A model generated the notes under the pieces. The model was not told the DNA's origin, ran no database searches, and was given only the letters and a program-made list of their open reading frames with translations. 43,448 nucleotides of DNA from a virus, in IMG/VR virus record IMGVR_UViG_3300046321_000209, positions 1 to 43,448 of that record, one strand, 5' to 3'. Made by a program: the position numbers and the translations under genes. Shown one piece after another: positions 1,105-12,003 of the stretch. Position 1 is the first letter of the stretch. Each line of letters begins with the position of its first letter.

Positions 1105-1143
1105 TTAGGGTCTATTATACCCTAAAATTTGAGTAGGGGTCAA
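1105..1143 (-). promoter_or_regulatory. Early promoter P1 with dyad over the -10
   Basis: Read on the minus strand, TTGACC (1138-1143) and TATAAT (1114-1119) are separated by 18 bases. A perfect inverted repeat, TTAGGGT (1105-1111) and ACCCTAA (1119-1125), brackets the -10. The TGA stop of the upstream Cys-rich gene is the TGA inside the -35 TTGACC. It drives the 739-1074 gene. It is one of seven related promoters in the first 6 kb. Confidence 0.8.
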
Positions 1144-1349
1144 CATTTATTTTCACTTACAGTGTTCAATTTATTTCTGTAATCAAATATGAAGGCGAAC
1201 GCTTCAGAGAGTCGTTCATTTGCCCCAACAATTTCTTTAGAATTATCGACACGGGGCAACCCTCGATTGCTCATTTCACACGGGCAATAAGGTTCGCCGA
1301 GTTGTGGCCCCATACACGCACAGGGTGATGGCGTATTATTTTGATTCAT
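1140..1349 (-). CDS. Small Cys-rich protein, 69 aa
   Basis: No known family is recognised. The start is taken as ATG at 1349, which overlaps the TAA of the preceding gene by one base (TAATG). An in-frame GTG at 1361 would add four residues. Residues 9-25 carry two Cys-x-Cys pairs (CACMGPQLGEPYCPCEM), which looks like a small metal-binding knot; this is inferred from the spacing only. The remainder is a hydrophilic helix. It is the last gene of a five-gene overlapping operon (2677 down to 1140), and its stop codon is embedded in the -35 box of the next promoter. Confidence 0.65.
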   Translation of the reverse strand: MNQNNTPSPCACMGPQLGEPYCPCEMSNRGLPRVDNSKEIVGANERLSEAFAFIFDYRNKLNTVSENKC

Positions 1350-1582
1350 TACACCCACCACTTAATTGTTGTAACCTGTTTAGCCTTTTTCTCGGCGAGC
1401 ACATATTCCTTATACTTCTTGAGTTGTTCTAGTGCGTACTCTTCTGATGGTGCGACCGAATACTGATCTGCGTAAATTCGGGGCCACCAAGAGAAAATCT
1501 TATCGTAACTCATATCTAAATATTCTTTGTGGAAGAATCCACGCTCGATCAGATACTTGTCGCCAATTTTAATTAGTTTCAT
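1349..1582 (-). CDS. Hypothetical protein, 77 aa
   Basis: An unrecognised small protein, rich in Tyr, Lys and Trp (FSWWPRIYADQYS in the middle, ending TTIKWWV). The ATG at 1582 overlaps the TGA of the preceding gene in an ATGA junction, so it is probably translationally coupled. No signal peptide or membrane segment is seen. The operon position places it with the Cys-rich paralogues on both sides. Confidence 0.65.
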   Translation of the reverse strand: MKLIKIGDKYLIERGFFHKEYLDMSYDKIFSWWPRIYADQYSVAPSEEYALEQLKKYKEYVLAEKKAKQVTTIKWWV

Positions 1583-1965
1583 TCAAATTTCTCCTTCAAT
1601 CTGAGATATTCTTTGTGCTCTGGTGAAGTTTTAACTTCTAGCTTTTGTTTGATTTTATGTCGAACATCAGCACTAGACCTATGAATCGAGAACCCACAGA
1701 TTTGTACAACATCGAGTACTTCATCGACGGTGTACATTGGTTCACCCAGTTGCACAGTTGATAAATCTTTAGTGAATTTGACTTCTTTCCAGACGCCATA
1801 TGTACAATCATCATTTAGTATATCACATAGAGAATCAGCGGCGGCGTTACGTGGTTGGCCGACACAACCATTGCAGACATGATCTTCATGAATCTTTTCA
1901 TACTCCACGGTGGAGTATGAAAACTTTTCATACTCAACACCATCAATAATTCTATTAGCACTCAT
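1579..1965 (-). CDS. Cys-rich small protein (CNGCV family), 128 aa
   Basis: The N-terminal half is clearly related to the 165-residue protein encoded at 2180-2677. Both begin with a basic/hydrophobic strand and DGVxYE, then have CNGCV, a downstream LC and another Cys, and end the domain with KEVK. Here the ligands would be the two Cys of CNGCV (about residues 32-35), LCDIL and DDCTYG. A four-Cys spacing of this kind suggests a small zinc-binding or disulfide domain. Phages often carry small Cys-rich proteins of this general type, but I cannot name a function. The C-terminal half is a helical tail without Cys. ATGA overlaps link it to both neighbours. Confidence 0.65.
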   Translation of the reverse strand: MSANRIIDGVEYEKFSYSTVEYEKIHEDHVCNGCVGQPRNAAADSLCDILNDDCTYGVWKEVKFTKDLSTVQLGEPMYTVDEVLDVVQICGFSIHRSSADVRHKIKQKLEVKTSPEHKEYLRLKEKFE

Positions 1966-2183
1966 TTCTTACTCCAAACAAAAACATCGGTACTTGCACC
2001 CATGTGCAAAACATCATCTGTTCCAAACATTGTACAGAATGAGTACATACCATCTAAGTGATGGAATTGAATCTTTAATTCGGGGTTGAATACTGGAGAC
2101 ACGATGGAGTGTCTAGGGCAGTCATACAACTTTACTGGTTGTGTTCCCTTATCAAAGTCTTTTAGATCAATTTCTGAGATCAT
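1962..2183 (-). CDS. Hypothetical protein, 73 aa
   Basis: An unrecognised small protein lying between the two Cys-rich paralogues, with ATGA start/stop overlaps on both sides. The sequence looks like a compact beta-rich domain (KIQFHHLDGMYSFC and DVLHMGASTDVFVW). Two Cys and several His residues are present without an obvious metal-binding spacing. Function unknown. Confidence 0.65.
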   Translation of the reverse strand: MISEIDLKDFDKGTQPVKLYDCPRHSIVSPVFNPELKIQFHHLDGMYSFCTMFGTDDVLHMGASTDVFVWSKK

Positions 2184-2677
2184 ACTTCCACCTCAACTTC
2201 TTGTGTTTCTGTTAACCAATATCGAAAGTGTGGTTGGGTGGCGAACTCTTCTTGCGTGTTGTGATGTACATGAAATTGATGTGTTGCAATATAATCACCC
2301 GAGCAGTCTCCCATTATAGCAAGGCGATATGTCAATTTAACGGTATCTGGTTTTACACGATACATCCCTGGATTTCGTGTAACTCGTTCAACCGCAAAGG
2401 AATCAAAGATGCCAATGGCAATAAACTTTTGACCACCATTAAACTGAATTTGCTTACCTTCGACAATTGCTAGCAAGAGAGAGTTTAGATGTGGGTCTAG
2501 TTGATTTTGTTCTTTTTTCACAATCTTTACTTCTTTCTGGATAGAGTCGTCGCACATGCCACCCAAATTCGTGCATAGGGCGTCGTCATTGTCTGCAACA
2601 CAACCGTTGCATGAACGTGGGTCAATTGACTCAACAGTTTCATAGTCAACACCATCAACAGTCTTAATTGTTTTCAT
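2180..2677 (-). CDS. Cys-rich protein (CNGCV family) with extra C-terminal domain, 165 aa
   Basis: This is the first gene of the five-gene operon behind promoter P2. The ATG at 2677 is preceded by AGAGGAAA. Residues 1-50 match the paralogue at 1579-1965: TVDGVDYE, CNGCV, ALCTNL, GGMCDD, then KEVKIVKK. The remaining 110 residues form a separate beta-rich region (QIQFNGGQKFIAIGIFDSF and following), absent from the paralogue. A Cys-based metal-binding role for the N-terminal domain is an inference from conserved spacing. No catalytic motif is visible. Confidence 0.7.
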   Translation of the reverse strand: MKTIKTVDGVDYETVESIDPRSCNGCVADNDDALCTNLGGMCDDSIQKEVKIVKKEQNQLDPHLNSLLLAIVEGKQIQFNGGQKFIAIGIFDSFAVERVTRNPGMYRVKPDTVKLTYRLAIMGDCSGDYIATHQFHVHHNTQEEFATQPHFRYWLTETQEVEVEV

Positions 2678-2697
2678 TTTGATTTCCTCTCGTTTCG

Positions 2698-2741
2698 CTT
2701 GCTCTTAGGGTCTATTATACCCTACATTGGAGCAAGGTCAA
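2698..2741 (-). promoter_or_regulatory. Early promoter P2 with nested dyads
   Basis: On the minus strand TTGACC (2736-2741) is followed after 16 bases by TATAAT (2714-2719) and then AGACCCTAAGAGCAAG. Two nested inverted repeats surround the -10: TAGGGT/ACCCTA immediately around it, and CTTGCTC (2698-2704)/GAGCAAG (2730-2736) further out. It drives the five-gene operon 2677-1140. Confidence 0.8.
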
Positions 2742-2830
2742 CAATTTATTTGAAATAACTTAGAACTACTGGAAAGGTTGCTGTGCACTACCCACCATTC
2801 TGCTGAATTCTGCTGATTTGTACACAAAAA

Positions 2831-3007
2831 CTATGGAATATTACTAGCAACATACCCAATCATACCCAACAAAACTACTACAAAAAAGAGTCCGAAGTTG
2901 TGGGTGCGTCTCAGATCCCTGTTAGTGGCTGCTAGTCGGTTATGAAGATCTAGGATATTCTCATTTTGGTTAGACACCAACTTAGTTAACCATTCTAGAT
3001 CATCCAC
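2831..3007 (-). CDS. Small C-terminal membrane-anchored protein, 58 aa
   Basis: The start is set at GTG 3007, preceded by GGGGGAG at normal spacing. Longer in-frame starts would overlap the phosphatase gene by 150 bases, which is unlikely. The N-terminal 38 residues are a charged amphipathic helix (NENILDLHNRLAATNRDLRR), followed by a single transmembrane segment (about residues 39-56, GLFFVVVLLGMIGYVA) close to the C-terminus. This is a tail-anchored topology. The function is unknown; an inner-membrane early protein is plausible. It overlaps the upstream gene by 8 bases. Confidence 0.65.
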   Translation of the reverse strand: MDDLEWLTKLVSNQNENILDLHNRLAATNRDLRRTHNFGLFFVVVLLGMIGYVASNIP

Positions 3008-3530
3008 AGTGAGTCTCCCCCAGTAGGGTAGACCGCTGCTCAGCAATATTGAAGATGTTCTCGAGTGCAGCTCTGGTAGAGGCGTCGGATGTGTGATGAA
3101 TGCCCCACCCACCTGCTTCCTCCCACCTGTGAATGTTGTCGATACGATCATCGATCAGTACACTGATCGCACCAGGAACAATGTGTTTTTGTTTGTCTCG
3201 AGCCAGACAGACAATTGTCTCCACACTTCCCAAATTATTATGCACCCATTTACGCTTGTCACGTTCAGCGAATGGAAGCCTGTCAGTTCGAGGGCGGCCA
3301 GTGATTACACGAATCGTTACATTGTTGGGAACATTCGATGCGCATCGGAACAACTCAACCATGGGAGGAATGGTTGGCAAATCAGCAAAGAAGGAAGGAG
3401 TCTTCTCAATATTTGACCAGAGCTCCCCACGAGCATCGTCGATGTGAGGTGGTACATCAAACAGCTTGATGTAGTGGCCGTCGAAGTCTGCCAATACACC
3501 ATCAAGATCAAATGCAATATCAATTTTCAT
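3000..3530 (-). CDS. HAD-family phosphatase, 5'(3')-deoxyribonucleotidase-like
   Basis: Residues 3-16 carry the HAD motif I (IAFDLDGVLADF), with the nucleophile and acid/base Asp pair. VITGRPR gives the motif II Thr, and LIDDR near residue 150 gives the motif IV acidic pair. The length (176 aa) and the DGVLAD signature match NT5C-type deoxyribonucleotidases, which dephosphorylate dNMPs. In a phage, such an enzyme could trim nucleotide pools or salvage modified nucleotides. The substrate assignment is inferred. The start is ATG 3530, where the HAD core begins; the open frame extends upstream but would overlap the previous gene. It is the middle gene of the operon behind promoter P3. Confidence 0.8.
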   Translation of the reverse strand: MKIDIAFDLDGVLADFDGHYIKLFDVPPHIDDARGELWSNIEKTPSFFADLPTIPPMVELFRCASNVPNNVTIRVITGRPRTDRLPFAERDKRKWVHNNLGSVETIVCLARDKQKHIVPGAISVLIDDRIDNIHRWEEAGGWGIHHTSDASTRAALENIFNIAEQRSTLLGETHCG

Positions 3531-3538
3531 ATTATGGG

Positions 3539-3730
3539 TTATGTTATTTGTTCTCGGGTCCAGATGAACTGAGTCGAAGCAGGAACCCACTTGAACTCGA
3601 ATCGCTTGTGGGCGGGTTTGTAAAAATCTGTGCAGATGCAGAACCAACCCTTATCGGTGCTAAATTCCACCGTTTCAGCGAATTTACTGATCTGCACAAT
3701 CGCACCTTCAATTGTCTTTGCTATCTGCAT
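3539..3730 (-). CDS. Hypothetical protein, 63 aa
   Basis: An unrecognised small protein with alternating charged and aromatic residues (WFCICTDFYKPAHKRFEFKW), probably a small beta domain. The ATG at 3730 has GGGAG upstream. It is the first gene after promoter P3 and is followed after 8 bases by the HAD phosphatase gene. Confidence 0.65.
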   Translation of the reverse strand: MQIAKTIEGAIVQISKFAETVEFSTDKGWFCICTDFYKPAHKRFEFKWVPASTQFIWTREQIT

Positions 3731-3755
3731 GATGTATATCTCCCTAGTAGGGTCA

Positions 3756-3784
3756 ATTATACATCACATTAAGTGATATGTCAA
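3756..3784 (-). promoter_or_regulatory. Early promoter P3, consensus sigma70
   Basis: On the minus strand this is TTGACA (3779-3784), a 17-base spacer and TATAAT (3756-3761), a perfect match to the bacterial sigma70 consensus, followed by TGACCCTA. It lies 26 bases upstream of the 3539-3730 start codon. Confidence 0.85.
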
Positions 3785-3803
3785 CCTGTTTAAGGGTACA
3801 ACA

Positions 3804-4535
3804 TCATATGATCGATTGCTTAGTTTTTCCCTTCGTACGAGCGCCGCCAACGTTATAAAAATACGTCGATGCGCCCAATTTTGTCATCGACAACTCGACC
3901 ATGAATTTCTGAACGATCGTGTCGCGAGACTTGTCCACAGATTTTGTGTAAATTTCGGTAGCCAATTGCTTCTTAGTAGGACCAACCTTAGTCGCTCTAG
4001 CAAGTGATACGGTACTTGAGATTATTACTGATGCTATCTTTGTGGCCTTTGGTGCCTTACCACTCTTCTCGCCACCCGATGCATAGAAGTACGTCTGAGC
4101 GCCGGCTGCCGATGTCCCCAATTCCTGCATGAACACCTTGATTACATTCACCTTAGACTTATCCGTCAGACCAGCATAGATTCGCTTAGCGATGTCGGAT
4201 TTAGTTTCCAATTTGGGTTTGGTAACTTTAACTTTCTTAACTTCGACAGCTTCTGGCTCATCACCATCGACAATTGCTTGAGCAACTGGTTCAGCAAACA
4301 ACCACGGGTGCCGCTCTTTGAGTGATCCTGCTTTAGTCACACCGACACGGAAATTAGGAGTCAGGCCGGCGATTTTGTCGACCATCATATATCCCAACAC
4401 ACTGTGCGCGAAACCTTGAGTCTGGAGCTCTGCTGCTTCAGGATCGAGATCTCGGATAATAGCATTCAGCTCTGTCCGAGACATCATGCGAGTAGATTCT
4501 AAGTATTCGTTAATTTCACGCAATGCTGACGACAT
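3804..4535 (-). CDS. Protein with two tandem GAxTYFY repeats, 243 aa
   Basis: The C-terminal half consists of two clearly related segments of about 50 residues, 111-160 and 187-236. Each contains TK..(I/L)A..IY, DKS+, V/I-K-F-M.EL, then GAQTYFYASGG or GASTYFYNVGG and a Lys-rich end. They are joined by a basic linker (residues 160-186). The N-terminal 90 residues are helical and unrelated. Repeated helical domains with basic linkers fit a DNA-binding or chromosome-associated protein, but I do not recognise a named family and infer this only from composition. The ATG at 4535 has AGGAG upstream. It is the sole gene behind promoter P4. Confidence 0.75.
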   Translation of the reverse strand: MSSALREINEYLESTRMMSRTELNAIIRDLDPEAAELQTQGFAHSVLGYMMVDKIAGLTPNFRVGVTKAGSLKERHPWLFAEPVAQAIVDGDEPEAVEVKKVKVTKPKLETKSDIAKRIYAGLTDKSKVNVIKVFMQELGTSAAGAQTYFYASGGEKSGKAPKATKIASVIISSTVSLARATKVGPTKKQLATEIYTKSVDKSRDTIVQKFMVELSMTKLGASTYFYNVGGARTKGKTKQSII

Positions 4536-4564
4536 TTGTATTCTCCTATTAGGTACACTTGCTC

Positions 4565-4602
4565 TTAGGGTCTATTATAACTATGATTTTACCAAAAGTC
4601 AA
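4565..4602 (-). promoter_or_regulatory. Early promoter P4
   Basis: On the minus strand this is TTGACT (4597-4602), 17 bases, TATAAT (4574-4579), then AGACCCTAAGAGCAAG, the same downstream box as P2. Only the downstream half of the dyad (TTAGGGT, 4565-4571) is kept. The TGA stop of the 53-residue gene upstream is the TGA of this -35 box. Confidence 0.85.
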
Positions 4603-4760
4603 CAGTCTTCTGAGGACTCGATACATGTTGAGGCACTGATATCAACACACTCCCAGTCAAAATATCGACCACTATCTATTTCGTGTTGAGCATCTTCAAA
4701 ATTGTTTGCTGATATAGTAACTACTTCTTCCAGTGTTCGAGTAACTGTATATGTTGGCAT
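4599..4760 (-). CDS. Small acidic protein, 53 aa
   Basis: A short frame from ATG 4760 to TGA 4599 encodes a protein starting MPTYTVTRTLEEVVTIS and ending with a Cys-containing acidic tail (ECVDISASTCIESSEDC). The beginning (YTVTRTLEEVVTI, then a helix NFEDAQHEI) resembles small phage proteins with a beta-alpha arrangement. No strong ribosome-binding site is seen. It follows the 72-residue gene after 15 bases and probably shares its transcript. Its stop lies inside the P4 -35 box. Confidence 0.55.
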   Translation of the reverse strand: MPTYTVTRTLEEVVTISANNFEDAQHEIDSGRYFDWECVDISASTCIESSEDC

Positions 4761-4775
4761 GATATTTGGTGTTAA

Positions 4776-4994
4776 TTAAGCTTTGTTGTAGTACACGACG
4801 ATGACATATCCAACAATATTGGGGGATTCTTCGATTTTAACTTCCCCAGACTTTCTGTAACAGTATGCAGCGAGCAGTGCGTCTTGGAGTGTGGCCACGT
4901 GAACGGATATGTAATCACTTTCGAGTGCGACTGGGGTTACTACCACTGAGGCATGTTGTTCGCCAAATTTAGTGTGAAGGGTGATTGGTTGCAT
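4776..4994 (-). CDS. Hypothetical protein, 72 aa
   Basis: An unrecognised small protein. It looks like a beta-strand-rich domain with a central helix (ISVHVATLQDALLAAYCYRK) and a hydrophobic C-terminal strand (IVGYVIVVYYNKA). The ATG at 4994 is preceded by AGGAA. It is the first gene after promoter P5. Confidence 0.65.
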   Translation of the reverse strand: MQPITLHTKFGEQHASVVVTPVALESDYISVHVATLQDALLAAYCYRKSGEVKIEESPNIVGYVIVVYYNKA

Positions 4995-5027
4995 CTAGAA
5001 GTTCCTGTATGATTGCTCTTAAAGTCA

Positions 5028-5055
5028 ATTATACCCTAAATTTGAGTAAGGTCAC
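5028..5055 (-). promoter_or_regulatory. Early promoter P5
   Basis: On the minus strand the -10 is TATAAT (5028-5033) and the -35 is GTGACC (5050-5055), one mismatch from the other copies, with a 16-base spacer. The downstream sequence TGACTTTAAGAGCAA keeps the conserved box. It drives the 72-residue gene at 4776. Confidence 0.75.
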
Positions 5056-5059
5056 CAGA

Positions 5060-5209
5060 CTATTTCACAGGTTTGCGATTCAGGACCATTTTACGATCAA
5101 GTGCAGCATCACGCTCACAAAACAACTTTTGCACGTAGTGATCGTTCATATTTTTATCCGTGCGCAGTTTCAATGTCGTATCGATGTCCGAAATCGCATA
5201 GTCGCACAT
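5060..5209 (-). CDS. Hypothetical small protein, 49 aa, start uncertain
   Basis: From ATG 5209 to TAG 5060 the frame encodes a hydrophilic helical protein (MCDYAISDIDTTLKL at the start, ERDAALDRKM near the end). The same frame stays open upstream to the TAA at 5291 and encodes a Cys-containing stretch (TKCTIQKCQNCIKTKF) without any ATG, GTG or TTG start. The real gene may therefore be longer and begin through a frameshift from the overlapping 5154-5270 frame. No clear ribosome-binding site precedes 5209. Confidence 0.45.
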   Translation of the reverse strand: MCDYAISDIDTTLKLRTDKNMNDHYVQKLFCERDAALDRKMVLNRKPVK

Positions 5210-5270
5210 CTCGAGTGTGTACGTCGAGAATTTCGTTTTTATACAGTTTTGACATTTCTGAATAGTACAT
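5154..5270 (-). CDS. Small ORF with good RBS overlapping the next frame, 38 aa
   Basis: The ATG at 5270 follows GAGG at about nine bases, the only good ribosome-binding site in this interval. The product (MYYSEMSKLYKNEILD and so on) stops at 5154 after 38 residues. The alternative frame over the same DNA has better protein character, with a Cys cluster and then a long helical segment. This is either a true small gene or the 5' part of a frameshifted gene continuing in the 5060-5209 frame. Confidence 0.35.
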   Translation of the reverse strand: MYYSEMSKLYKNEILDVHTRDVRLCDFGHRYDIETAHG

Positions 5271-5290
5271 TTTGTATTTTCCTCAGTTGA

Positions 5291-5500
5291 TTATGCAACA
5301 CTATTCACCAAGCACTTTCCTTCCTCTACCCACTGCTCCACACTCATGTTACTGAGGTATTTGACATACACTATCTGGTTCTCGTAGATGGAATTTGCAT
5401 CAAGATCATCATACACAAAATACCAATACCCAGTGCCTTTGTACAAAGCCAAGTTTGGGTTGCCAATCTTTTTGAGAATTACAGAGGTTGAAGTAGTCAT
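5291..5500 (-). CDS. Conserved-type small phage protein, 69 aa
   Basis: The central segment (LALYKGTGYWYFVYDD) and the end (MSVEQWVEEGKCLV) follow a pattern I know from many small phage proteins: a Gly-Tyr-aromatic strand, an acidic turn, a strand and a terminal MS/T-x-x-x-W helix. The family has no assigned function. The start is ATG 5500; the ribosome-binding site is weak. It is the first gene after promoter P6. Confidence 0.65.
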   Translation of the reverse strand: MTTSTSVILKKIGNPNLALYKGTGYWYFVYDDLDANSIYENQIVYVKYLSNMSVEQWVEEGKCLVNSVA

Positions 5501-5528
5501 GGTTGAGATAGAGTTGGTTGATATTACG

Positions 5529-5556
5529 AGTATACCCTATTTTACCACAACGTCAA
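5529..5556 (-). promoter_or_regulatory. Early promoter P6, divergent -10
   Basis: On the minus strand this is TTGACG (5551-5556), 16 bases, TATACT (5529-5534). The bases upstream of the -10 keep TAGGG, but the conserved GACCCTAAGAGCAA box is lost (CGTAATATC instead). The promoter lies inside the 3' end of the 5537-5863 gene, whose last codons are encoded by the -35 and spacer. Confidence 0.65.
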
Positions 5557-5863
5557 CACTTATTTTGGAATAAAAAGTGTTGCAGTCAGCCTTAATTTCA
5601 TCTAGGCGCTGGAGAACTTGGTACTGCTGCGTCGCAACTTTCTTCTCCGTACACTTACCAGTTGAGGTCATATACACTTTCGAAAAGTCTAAAAAGGGTA
5701 CGTGTGTAGCCATGCCCGACTCTACCACGAAACGACTCGCGAAAGTATAGATTGTACCACTCGCACTCTTGCGGGTAATGATACGTAGTTGGGTACCATC
5801 AACTCGATCGATCTTAGTTTCCGCTACCCAACCAACAGAACTCTTGACTGTAACAATTCCCAT
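5537..5863 (-). CDS. Hypothetical protein, 108 aa
   Basis: An unrecognised protein. Residues 1-70 look like a beta-rich domain (VTVKSSVGWVAETKID, RIITRKSASGTIYTF), followed by a helix (TQQYQVLQRLDEIKAD). The ATG at 5863 is preceded by GTGGGAG. It is driven by promoter P7, and its 3' end contains promoter P6. Confidence 0.65.
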   Translation of the reverse strand: MGIVTVKSSVGWVAETKIDRVDGTQLRIITRKSASGTIYTFASRFVVESGMATHVPFLDFSKVYMTSTGKCTEKKVATQQYQVLQRLDEIKADCNTFYSKISVDVVVK

Positions 5864-5905
5864 TTAAAAATCTCCCACTGTTGCGTTCGTTTGCTTATAG
5901 GGTCA

Positions 5906-5933
5906 ATTATACACCAAATTCCAATAAGGTCAA
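5906..5933 (-). promoter_or_regulatory. Early promoter P7
   Basis: On the minus strand this is TTGACC (5928-5933), 16 bases, TATAAT (5906-5911), then TGACCCTATAAGCAA, close to the conserved downstream box. It lies between the primase gene stop (5944) and the 108-residue gene it drives. Confidence 0.8.
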
Positions 5934-9485: not shown

Positions 9486-11465
9486 TTACGAATGTGGTGG
9501 CCAGACAAATTTAAGTTGCCCCGAATCATATATTTTTGAGTACTTGTTGGCAAACATAATTTCTTCTTCCGTCATTGTGACTGGACAGTCTGGAAATAAC
9601 GCCCTCAACTTATGCTTTTGATATTTTAACCGCGACTCTAGTGTTATACAATCTTTTGTGTACCAATAATTAGGAGCCGTGGCGCCGCAATAACCAAACC
9701 CCATTTTTGCATACACTTTGCCGTCACTCCATCTCCTGTTTGCATATGACACTACAGAGGTTGGCTGATGCTCTTGTACAAAATGCTTAAACATTTTAGA
9801 CATTCCCCCCACCACCGTGTGATGCAGAATAGTACACGATCTCAACAGCTCCCACTGCACAGATTTATCGTACCTGGATCGACCAAATGACATTACAGAA
9901 ACTAACTCGCCACAATTGAGCAGCGCTACATTAACTACATTCCCAACACATTTACCCTGTAAGTGATTTTTATCAAAAAACTCATCTGCAGTGCGTTTAT
10001 CGACTGTTGTTATTGTAGTGTGCCTGCCAAAGATTTTAATAGAGTGTCCGAGTGAGTTGGCGATGACTGATTTCCATTTGGGATTATTTGCGGCATCAGT
10101 CCACTCTGCATCCCAAATGTGGAATAACTTCAAACCAGCGGATGAGCAGGCTTCTGTTTTTTGTACGTGTCTAGTTGCATTGTGTGTATCGCGTGGTACA
10201 TTCGATGAGTGCCAATATACACCATTCAACTCAAATGCTGCTTTTTTGTCGACGCACAACACATCCAGTTCTTTTCGATTCAGAACAACTCTATCATTCG
10301 GAACAGACGTAGGGCACAACGATTGAATATACGCGAACAATTCCTTTTCTGGCTTTGATGTCCCTCCTTGACACTTGATGCACCCAACATTGAACAAGCG
10401 ATAATTATTGAATGTTGGATGAAACAGCCCATGTGTGGCACAGCGGATGTTAATTTTTGTGTTGATGCCTACCCAATCCTGAGGGGACACAATCTCATGT
10501 GTATGTCCTCTGGTGTCGGGCAGTAAAATCAACTTCAAGTATTTTTGATACGAACCACTTTTTAATTCGGTTTCACGTTCTACTTTGGTTCGATATTCAA
10601 TCCCGTACATATCACAATATTTTGCAACAGTAAGGTCACTAACCCCGAGCTGCTTCGATACACCTGCCAGGGAATTACCGGTCATCATTTCAGCAAGTAG
10701 TGTAGCATCTAACAGTGCAGGAACGCGTATGGTGAGTGCGTCTGTTGGTGTATTTCGCGATATCTCTCGTCTATGAGGCAACTGTGCGTGATATGGCACT
10801 CCAAAACGCTTAATATTGTATTGTTCCTTTGAATATTTGGTGTCTTCATCTGGCCGTGTTATCCCACATTGCTGCAATGCGAGATTGATAGCAATATAAG
10901 TGACATTCCCCAGTAGTTCCGCAATTTCACTACACATCAACCTATCTATACAGTACAGTTGGCGCAATTCCTCTTCAAATACTCCAGCTATTGAATACCT
11001 GGAAATTCCAAGTTGCCGCAGCCTGTGTTGTATAGCTGCATGGGACAATGAGGTTATCTGCCCTACATCTGCACAAGATTTCCCAGCCTTCAACCACCCC
11101 TTCACAGTAGCGCGGTCTGGAATCACATCGACAGCTCTTGTGCGGCCGGTTGGGCGACGTGACGGAGATAGTATTTGTTCAGTAGTATGGGCACCTATAC
11201 CAAATTTTTCCTGAACTTTAGTGAACGTCAAGTTATCTACAGTGTACGCAACCACCACACGCTGTACAAACGCTGGATGGTCATTTCGCTTACTGATGTT
11301 ACACTTGCTAAGTGCTTTTCGTACCGTGGGTGTACCGACAGGTAACTCACAGCATATTTTCACTTGCTCGACAGTCAACCTATCAACGTTGAGCAGCCAA
11401 TCGATCAATCCAATATTTTTCTCTACAAACTCGTATGCGGATGCACATCGAGTCGAATCAAACAA
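9486..11465 (-). CDS. Large homing endonuclease with helix-turn-helix array
   Basis: A free-standing homing endonuclease of the EDxHD/Vsr-like type is the best reading. Numbering is from a TTG at 11465. The N-terminal 250 residues contain at least four helix-turn-helix-like units (for example SHAAIQHRLRQLGISR and SDLTVAKYCDMYGIEY). Next comes a C..H..C..C zinc-like motif (GCIKC). A nuclease core follows at about 371-455: KPEKELFAYIQ, ELDVLCVDKKAAFELNGVYWH, LKLFHIWDAEW. A GNAT-like C-terminal domain spans about 490-600 (NVALLNCGELVSVMSFGRS). The frame is open to an ATG at 11618, but that start would overlap the dCTP deaminase gene by 161 bases. A start near the deaminase stop is more likely. 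The gene separates the deaminase and exonuclease genes, as expected for an invading selfish gene. Confidence 0.82.
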   Translation of the reverse strand: MFDSTRCASAYEFVEKNIGLIDWLLNVDRLTVEQVKICCELPVGTPTVRKALSKCNISKRNDHPAFVQRVVVAYTVDNLTFTKVQEKFGIGAHTTEQILSPSRRPTGRTRAVDVIPDRATVKGWLKAGKSCADVGQITSLSHAAIQHRLRQLGISRYSIAGVFEEELRQLYCIDRLMCSEIAELLGNVTYIAINLALQQCGITRPDEDTKYSKEQYNIKRFGVPYHAQLPHRREISRNTPTDALTIRVPALLDATLLAEMMTGNSLAGVSKQLGVSDLTVAKYCDMYGIEYRTKVERETELKSGSYQKYLKLILLPDTRGHTHEIVSPQDWVGINTKINIRCATHGLFHPTFNNYRLFNVGCIKCQGGTSKPEKELFAYIQSLCPTSVPNDRVVLNRKELDVLCVDKKAAFELNGVYWHSSNVPRDTHNATRHVQKTEACSSAGLKLFHIWDAEWTDAANNPKWKSVIANSLGHSIKIFGRHTTITTVDKRTADEFFDKNHLQGKCVGNVVNVALLNCGELVSVMSFGRSRYDKSVQWELLRSCTILHHTVVGGMSKMFKHFVQEHQPTSVVSYANRRWSDGKVYAKMGFGYCGATAPNYWYTKDCITLESRLKYQKHKLRALFPDCPVTMTEEEIMFANKYSKIYDSGQLKFVWPPHS

Positions 11466-12003
11466 TACCAGCTCTGGTGGTCCAATCTGAGTCGAGTGAG
11501 TGATTGTATCCGCCTGAATATTCTCCAACACTATCAGACTTGACGAACAGGATCTGGCCAACCCTTGTTCCTGGGGCGATGTGTGCTGTTGGTCCATTAT
11601 TGTGTAAGCTAAATCCAATGTGGCCGGTGTATTTACTGTCGTACAGCCCAGACGTTAAAAATATACCGTTTCTGTTAAGAGTAGACCGAACGACTAGTAG
11701 TGCTGCCACCTGGGTGGGGATATTCAAATACATATTAGACAAGCAGTCTACAGTACAACCTGCAGGTATTTGCAGTGATTCTATCCCATCAACATTCTGT
11801 TTTGGTGTAATCTGTGTTGTTGACCGCATTTTTTTATGTGAATTACTTAACCGGAACTCGTCGAGGGTGTTGAAATAAAATGCTTTATCTAACGTAAAAT
11901 CTAAAGCATTGGGTTGGATACTGTTGGTACTCAACCAATCGTATGTTGCATCTGTGTGGGTGATCCAACCTTCAGCAATTGCCGTCTTAGGAGATATGAT
12001 CAT
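11458..12003 (-). CDS. dCTP deaminase / dUTPase-family enzyme
   Basis: A trimeric dUTPase-fold enzyme that converts dCTP to dUTP or dUTP to dUMP. Visible motifs are QPNALDFTLDKAF near the N-terminus, VVRSTLNRNGIFL (the phosphate-binding Arg-Ser), SGLYDSKYTGHIGFSLHN (the nucleotide-binding Asp/Tyr/Gly motif), APGTRVGQILFV and YSGGYNH near the C-terminus. The length of 181 residues and motif order fit Dcd better than a short dUTPase, but I cannot decide between the two activities. The start overlaps the DpdA-like stop (ATGA). The downstream end overlaps the start of the homing endonuclease gene. Confidence 0.85.
   Translation of the reverse strand: MIISPKTAIAEGWITHTDATYDWLSTNSIQPNALDFTLDKAFYFNTLDEFRLSNSHKKMRSTTQITPKQNVDGIESLQIPAGCTVDCLSNMYLNIPTQVAALLVVRSTLNRNGIFLTSGLYDSKYTGHIGFSLHNNGPTAHIAPGTRVGQILFVKSDSVGEYSGGYNHSLDSDWTTRAGIV

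Follow-up and report, generated by a model that had tools for sequence, protein, structure and literature searches.

Organization of the operon

The window analyzed here is a whole virus record of 43,448 bases from IMG/VR. The phage appears to be large, and its DNA polymerase is, as far as protein comparison can tell, nearest those of T4-like jumbo phages; 2550 phage records matched this polymerase, and the top match among the best 20 was jumbo phage XacN1 (37% over 79% of the protein). Five overlapping ORFs occupy the minus strand between 2677 and 1140 and encode proteins of 165, 73, 128, 77 and 69 aa, exactly where a sequence-only reading of the window had placed an operon of five genes. The genes and the elements around them are the following:

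2714..2741, minus strand: sigma70-like early promoter, TTGACC-16-TATAAT, in front of gene 1
2180..2677, minus strand: gene 1, 165 aa, with an N-terminal C4 domain at residues 1-54 (Cys 23, 26, 35, 42) and an EGKxIQ...YRVKP module at about residues 51-111
1962..2183, minus strand: gene 2, 73 aa, an F-x-H-[LVI]-D-G-M-Y-S-[FY]-C protein
1579..1965, minus strand: gene 3, 128 aa, with an N-terminal C4 domain at residues 1-66 (Cys 31, 34, 47, 54) and an unrelated C-terminal part
1894..1938, minus strand: repeat within gene 3, two direct 15-base copies at gene positions 28-42 and 58-72 (14 of 15 letters alike) with an inverted copy between
1349..1582, minus strand: gene 4, 77 aa, no family recognized
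1140..1349, minus strand: gene 5, 69 aa from its ATG, a CPC microprotein with C-x-C-x-G-P-x2-G-E-P-x-C-P-C-x-M (Cys 10, 12, 22, 24)
1114..1143, minus strand: next promoter, TTGACC-18-TATAAT, which overlaps the end of gene 5 and lies upstream of the gene at 1074-739

The genes had been described as linked throughout by ATGA overlaps; three of the four junctions are of this kind, while the remaining one reads TAATG. Shine-Dalgarno-like letters were seen by eye upstream of starts 1-4 and are weak at start 5; gene 5 also has an alternative GTG start at 1361, which would give 73 aa. The early promoter that had been proposed to drive the operon is indeed found as one sigma70-like site in front of it (2741-2714). 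The strict pattern TTGAC-N16..18-TATAAT has four occurrences in the window, where shuffles have 0.10, and a looser scan for promoters over the first 6 kb gave no enrichment (17 sites against 14.5 +/- 3.4 in shuffles). Within these 6 kb, a regular expression without shuffle control marked seven early-type promoter-like sites on the minus strand (1114-5933), among which are three promoter copies of about 50 bp that are 81-86% alike. By eye, a TAGGGT...ACCCTA inverted repeat flanks the -10 box at both 2741 and 1143.

T4-type phages have early promoter-stem-loop (PeSL) cassettes. The window resembles them in that early promoter cassettes recur between its small gene modules, but differs in that a crude, simple scan of the minus strand detected no terminator-like site near the promoters at 2741 and 1143. 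PeSL cassettes of T4-type phages are the subject of at least part of PMC4503421.

L001, a near-identical IMG/VR contig, shows three differences over the 12,535 of 28,554 bp that were compared. Its version of the 165-aa gene (L001 5001-5498; window 2677-2180) has TAG in place of CAG as codon 47. This stop falls after the four Cys codons, so that a short C4 peptide could still form while the C-terminal module would be lost. It may be an assembly error; if genuine, it would speak against an essential role of the 165-aa gene. Two further contigs, from one metagenome and about 95% and 88% identical to the window near their end, both stop at window position 4394, within the gene at 3804-4535 and 1.7 kb upstream of the operon, which is consistent with a variable region. 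Elsewhere in the window, a 710-aa ORF on the minus strand (9486-11618) sits between other genes; by eye it is a candidate homing-type endonuclease.

A four-cysteine domain in two copies

The products of genes 1 and 3 share a CNGCV motif and had been suspected of being paralogous, and so they proved: the 165-aa and 128-aa proteins are 36% identical over 66 aa (BLASTP E=2e-6 in this single comparison), and their similarity score was reached by 0 of 5000 shuffles, likewise by 0 of 5000 with Cys positions fixed. The similarity is confined to residues 1-54 and 1-66, respectively, and the C-terminal parts differ, hence it was the small Cys domain that was duplicated. What the comparison shows is an N-terminal four-cysteine (C4) microdomain of about 55 residues in two copies with unlike C-terminal parts attached. 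These were the only C4 copies that a relaxed motif search of the window detected. The DNA stretch TTGATGGTGTTGA has the same letters in both, which suggests that the duplication is not very old. The repeat inside gene 3 probably arose as a 30-bp palindromic template-switch insertion that lengthened a loop; the RNA around it has a predicted fold of -24.3 kcal/mol, compared with -12.8 in shuffles (z -4.0).

None of the five operon proteins had been assigned to a characterized family, and Pfam agreed, with no family at E up to 1. Nor did gene 2, the two C-terminal parts or the two Aeromonas phage proteins described below match any Pfam family, here at E up to 10. PHROG matches at E 0.019-0.47 were not counted as evidence. 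PDB sequence searches on the C4 side had a best E of 0.47 or worse and found no solved relative. AlphaFold2 models of the two C4 proteins, built from two-row alignments, reached a mean pLDDT of 33.7 and 43.4 and lent no support to a metal site.

When the 165-aa domain was compared by tblastn with 50,697 phage records, 10 records were returned at E up to 10, all of them Aeromonas phages, with a best E of 0.1. The 61-aa protein of PVN02 then led to an 11th record, ZPAH140. The proteins of these two phages follow the window domain in their G-x2-Y, C-x2-C and L-C-x2-L-x3-C elements and keep all four Cys, and each short ORF overlaps the next gene, as in the window. They differ in being 61-aa hypothetical proteins that stand alone, without a C-terminal module, and PVN02 (Chaseviridae, Pahsextavirus) belongs to a virus family other than that of the window phage. 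The ZPAH140 ORF (ON364344.1, 45181-45363) carries no annotation in its record. Invariant in all four C4 sequences, two from the window and two from Aeromonas phages, are the four Cys, G9, Y12, L34 and L38; the cysteine layout C-x2-C-x8(12)-C-x6-C, with L preceding the third Cys, is likewise found in each. The PVN02 and ZPAH140 proteins are 52% identical, the 12th lowest value among the 49 of 61 tested proteins that had a match (median 64%; the other 12 had none), and with an NG86 dN of 0.38 and a saturated dS of 2.55 their gene looks to be under constraint.

A profile of the two Aeromonas proteins ranked the 165-aa ORF first of the 490 window ORFs (E 7e-5), a rank that lacks full independence, because PVN02 had itself been retrieved with the 165-aa protein. 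The 128-aa ORF came second of 490, at E 0.37 and in a slipped alignment. With Cys positions fixed, the score of the 165-aa copy was reached in 0 of 5000 shuffles against PVN02, itself picked with this copy, and in 10 of 5000 against ZPAH140. The 128-aa copy was not significant against the two proteins, whether in plain shuffles (185 and 199 of 5000) or Cys-fixed ones (472 and 580 of 5000), and the Aeromonas link therefore rests on the 165-aa copy.

Chance likeness to the Aeromonas proteins, the window copies then being a local duplication without a wider family, is nevertheless unlikely in our judgment. It would fit the database E of just 0.1, the choice of PVN02 as best pick of 50,697 records, by which later tests are biased in its favor, and the fact that pattern and profile scans yielded no further relative. 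It fits poorly with the Cys-fixed shuffles, including those of ZPAH140, which was not picked with a window protein, with the first rank of the 165-aa ORF, and with a match that begins at the start of a short ORF in both.

The C4 profile gave no convincing match in six large phages (XacN1, RAS14, Phosso, Atu_ph07, SCTP-2 and Yut2) chosen from the polymerase matches; the one partial match, in Atu_ph07 (E 0.017), lies in a frame containing three stops. Two DNA pattern scans of IMG/VR returned 6 and 10 stretches. One of the 6 was the near-identical contig, and the remaining 5 and all 10 were judged by eye on their translation to be chance. Profile-derived scans of viral and genome contigs returned the near-identical contig or nothing. 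Among tblastn matches to C4, those in S-SSM7 (an oxygenase in the RefSeq copy), in PPpW-3 (on the strand opposite to the annotated genes) and, judged from the listing, in Klebsiella and Azobacteroides were also dismissed as chance. Among the collections searched, Aeromonas phages alone provided convincing C4 relatives beyond the near-identical contig, and the link to them is weak.

The C-terminal module and genes 2 and 4

The C-terminal module of the 165-aa protein resembles an ORF of the gut phage scaffold MT835610 (38% over 63 aa; pairwise E 2e-7, database E 0.5), with which it has the core EGK-IQ...YRVKP in common. A profile of five EGKxIQ...YR[VI]KP ORFs, the one of MT835610 among them, ranked the 165-aa ORF first of 490 (E 0.003), one of the five having been found with the window protein. 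These proteins, from Stenotrophomonas phages S72 and StenR_269 and from gut phage scaffolds, match the C-terminal half of the 165-aa protein but lack the C4 domain, and are hypothetical or unannotated in their records. With the C4 proteins of Aeromonas phages on one side and the EGKxIQ ORFs on the other, both halves of the 165-aa protein thus have stand-alone counterparts. For gene 2, one relative (41.7%, E 3e-4; core F-x-H-x-DGMYS-x-C) turned up in Podoviridae sp. ctYwJ313, and for gene 4 none was found in the libraries searched.

The CPC microprotein family

The protein of gene 5 had been set apart from the other two cysteine proteins for its arrangement of cysteines, and its motif is in fact a different one, C-x-C-x-G-P-x2-G-[EDQ]-P-x-C-P-C-x-M. 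A DNA pattern for G-P-x2-G-x-P-x-C-P-C found 23 stretches in IMG/VR, namely the near-identical contig and 22 others. The flanking C-x-C-x and x-M lay outside the search pattern; 19 of the 22 stretches have both and three have neither, a bimodal distribution as expected of a real family. The latter three (L075, L077, L078) were counted as misses. The full signature is accordingly present in the 69-aa protein of the window and in 19 of the 22 others, which amount to at most 18 different proteins, as L068 and L076 encode the same 78-aa frame. An alignment of 17 rows was made from the window protein and 16 of the 19, without L060, L066 and L076. Every row keeps the same four Cys, two G, three P and one M; the pattern itself had fixed the second C-P-C and G, G, P, P, and had left the first C-x-C and the M free. 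The CPC profile matched 20 of 28 records, i.e. the 19 and the window, mostly by construction, and none of the eight other phages searched.

Pfam, PHROG and NCBIfam offered no family that more than one of the 17 members matched at E up to 0.1, the best single match being NF041120 (E 0.0011), and no PDB chain matched. Four CPC motif strings did not occur in the literature searched, and a literature search on both the C4 and the CPC families found nothing. For CPC, tblastn was of little use: a match in Fireman was ruled out on reading the sequence, and Caulobacter and ssRNA phage matches were ruled out from the listing.

Two cultured phages, Planktothrix phage Pag-Yong1 and Synechococcus phage MinM2, encode one and the same 77-aa CPC protein (CFCIGPQPGEVKCPCVL), whose gene is immediately upstream of that for the large terminase subunit. 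It has the core C-x-C-x-G-P-x2-G-x3-C-P-C of the IMG/VR proteins, but lacks the P before C-P-C and has L in place of the M of the other members. The MinM2 record labels this protein a RusA nuclease, the Pag-Yong1 record a hypothetical protein. The records OQ594354.1, OL906435.1 and PP438419.1 (MinM2, Pag-Yong1 and Planktothrix phage Pra-JY27) are each 65,014 bases long.

C-terminal tails vary among the CPC microproteins, both in IMG/VR contigs and in Pag-Yong1/MinM2. In L067 and L072 the tail carries a further W-x-C-P-x-C...C...C stretch reminiscent of a zinc finger. Nine chosen ORFs near CPC genes were scanned in eight of the 19 contigs, and gave a terminase large subunit (L059, L073), PhoH and a ClpP-like protease (L065), thymidylate synthase (L063, L064), DNA methyltransferase (L067, L069) and an ORF without match (L074). 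The neighbors examined vary, and therefore none of them indicates a function. C4 and CPC were seen together in the window and the near-identical contig only; in the 19 CPC records the C4 profile made two partial matches (E 0.0025 and 0.0105). In sum, gene 5 belongs to a recurrent, unnamed phage microprotein family separate from C4, and is better supported in this than the C4 copies.

Possible function of the operon

The four cysteines, whose conservation the sequence-only reading had named as its test together with a metal site in the structure, are invariant in 4 of 4 C4 and 17 of 17 CPC sequences. Small zinc proteins are well known, and small size together with four conserved Cys points to a zinc-stabilized fold; zinc binding by the Cys proteins is likely on these grounds. 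In the explanation that we favor, and to which as a whole we give a probability of about one half, the operon is one transcription unit within a variable early region, encoding zinc-site microproteins that are accessory host-adaptation genes. Each set of four Cys would form a zinc site and thereby fold a module not large enough to have a hydrophobic core, and the early promoter and overlapping genes would ensure co-production soon after infection. Somewhat more speculatively, these early-made modules might bind host proteins or nucleic acid, and the C4 copies might carry their two unlike C-terminal parts to partners of a single kind. The operon genes are most likely accessory for host adaptation, not essential. 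It is also conceivable, at well below even odds, that the CPC proteins are an undescribed family that would bind metal via its two C-x-C pairs, act on one conserved host target and be mobile, working here alongside a duplicated C4 adaptor; such mobility would take it into the early regions of large phages, next to terminase genes and into further settings.

The operon genes could instead be accessory ORFs close to neutrality, reshuffled along with early promoter cassettes and lacking a strong function in most hosts. The stop in the 165-aa gene of the near-identical contig, a natural one on this account, would fit such a picture, as would the two contigs that break off at 4394, the repetition of the promoter cassettes, the palindromic repeat tolerated by the C4 domain of gene 3 and the lack of relatives of gene 4 in the libraries searched. 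Yet all four Cys are retained by both copies in the window and by the two proteins of Aeromonas phages, dN is well below dS in the Aeromonas pair, and the strict motif occurs in 19 of 22 CPC stretches, and we hold near-neutrality to be possible, at somewhat under one chance in three.

More doubtful is that the Cys serve not as a zinc site but as disulfides, a redox pair or a small Fe-S site. C-x2-C and C-x-C pairs are found among redox and Fe-S proteins, and the YfhL ferredoxin model matches the 165-aa protein very weakly (E 0.034), though with 14.5 bits this match stays far below the NCBIfam cut-off of 86 bits for this 4Fe-4S ferredoxin. Furthermore, no redox partner gene was recognized among the operon genes, and structural disulfides are disfavored in the reducing cytoplasm of bacteria.

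Least probable is an anti-defense set in which the Cys proteins inhibit a host immune system: anti-defense genes are typically small, driven by early promoters and located in variable regions, but none of the five proteins has a PADLOC match at E up to 1 (weak counterevidence, as PADLOC lists defense and not anti-defense proteins), and one cultured phage has its CPC gene immediately upstream of that for the large terminase subunit, a setting that is not defense-like. The earlier suggestion of a host-takeover or anti-defense role thus found no backing, either in PADLOC or in any telling neighbor; the observation from which it started is confirmed, and its interpretation is partly supported.

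Significance

The operon consists of ordinary variable early genes and one unnamed microprotein family (CPC), and the two C4 copies represent a domain duplication with few known relatives. To our knowledge, most early phage genes are nameless. The CPC family is the part of the operon worth following, with a concrete handle in its strict 17-residue signature, found on 19 IMG/VR contigs in varied gene contexts and unrecognized by Pfam, PHROGs and NCBIfam. If the target of CPC is conserved across hosts, this would account for the retention of so short a motif. The C4 pair, for its part, illustrates the reuse by a phage of one microdomain with two different tails inside one operon.
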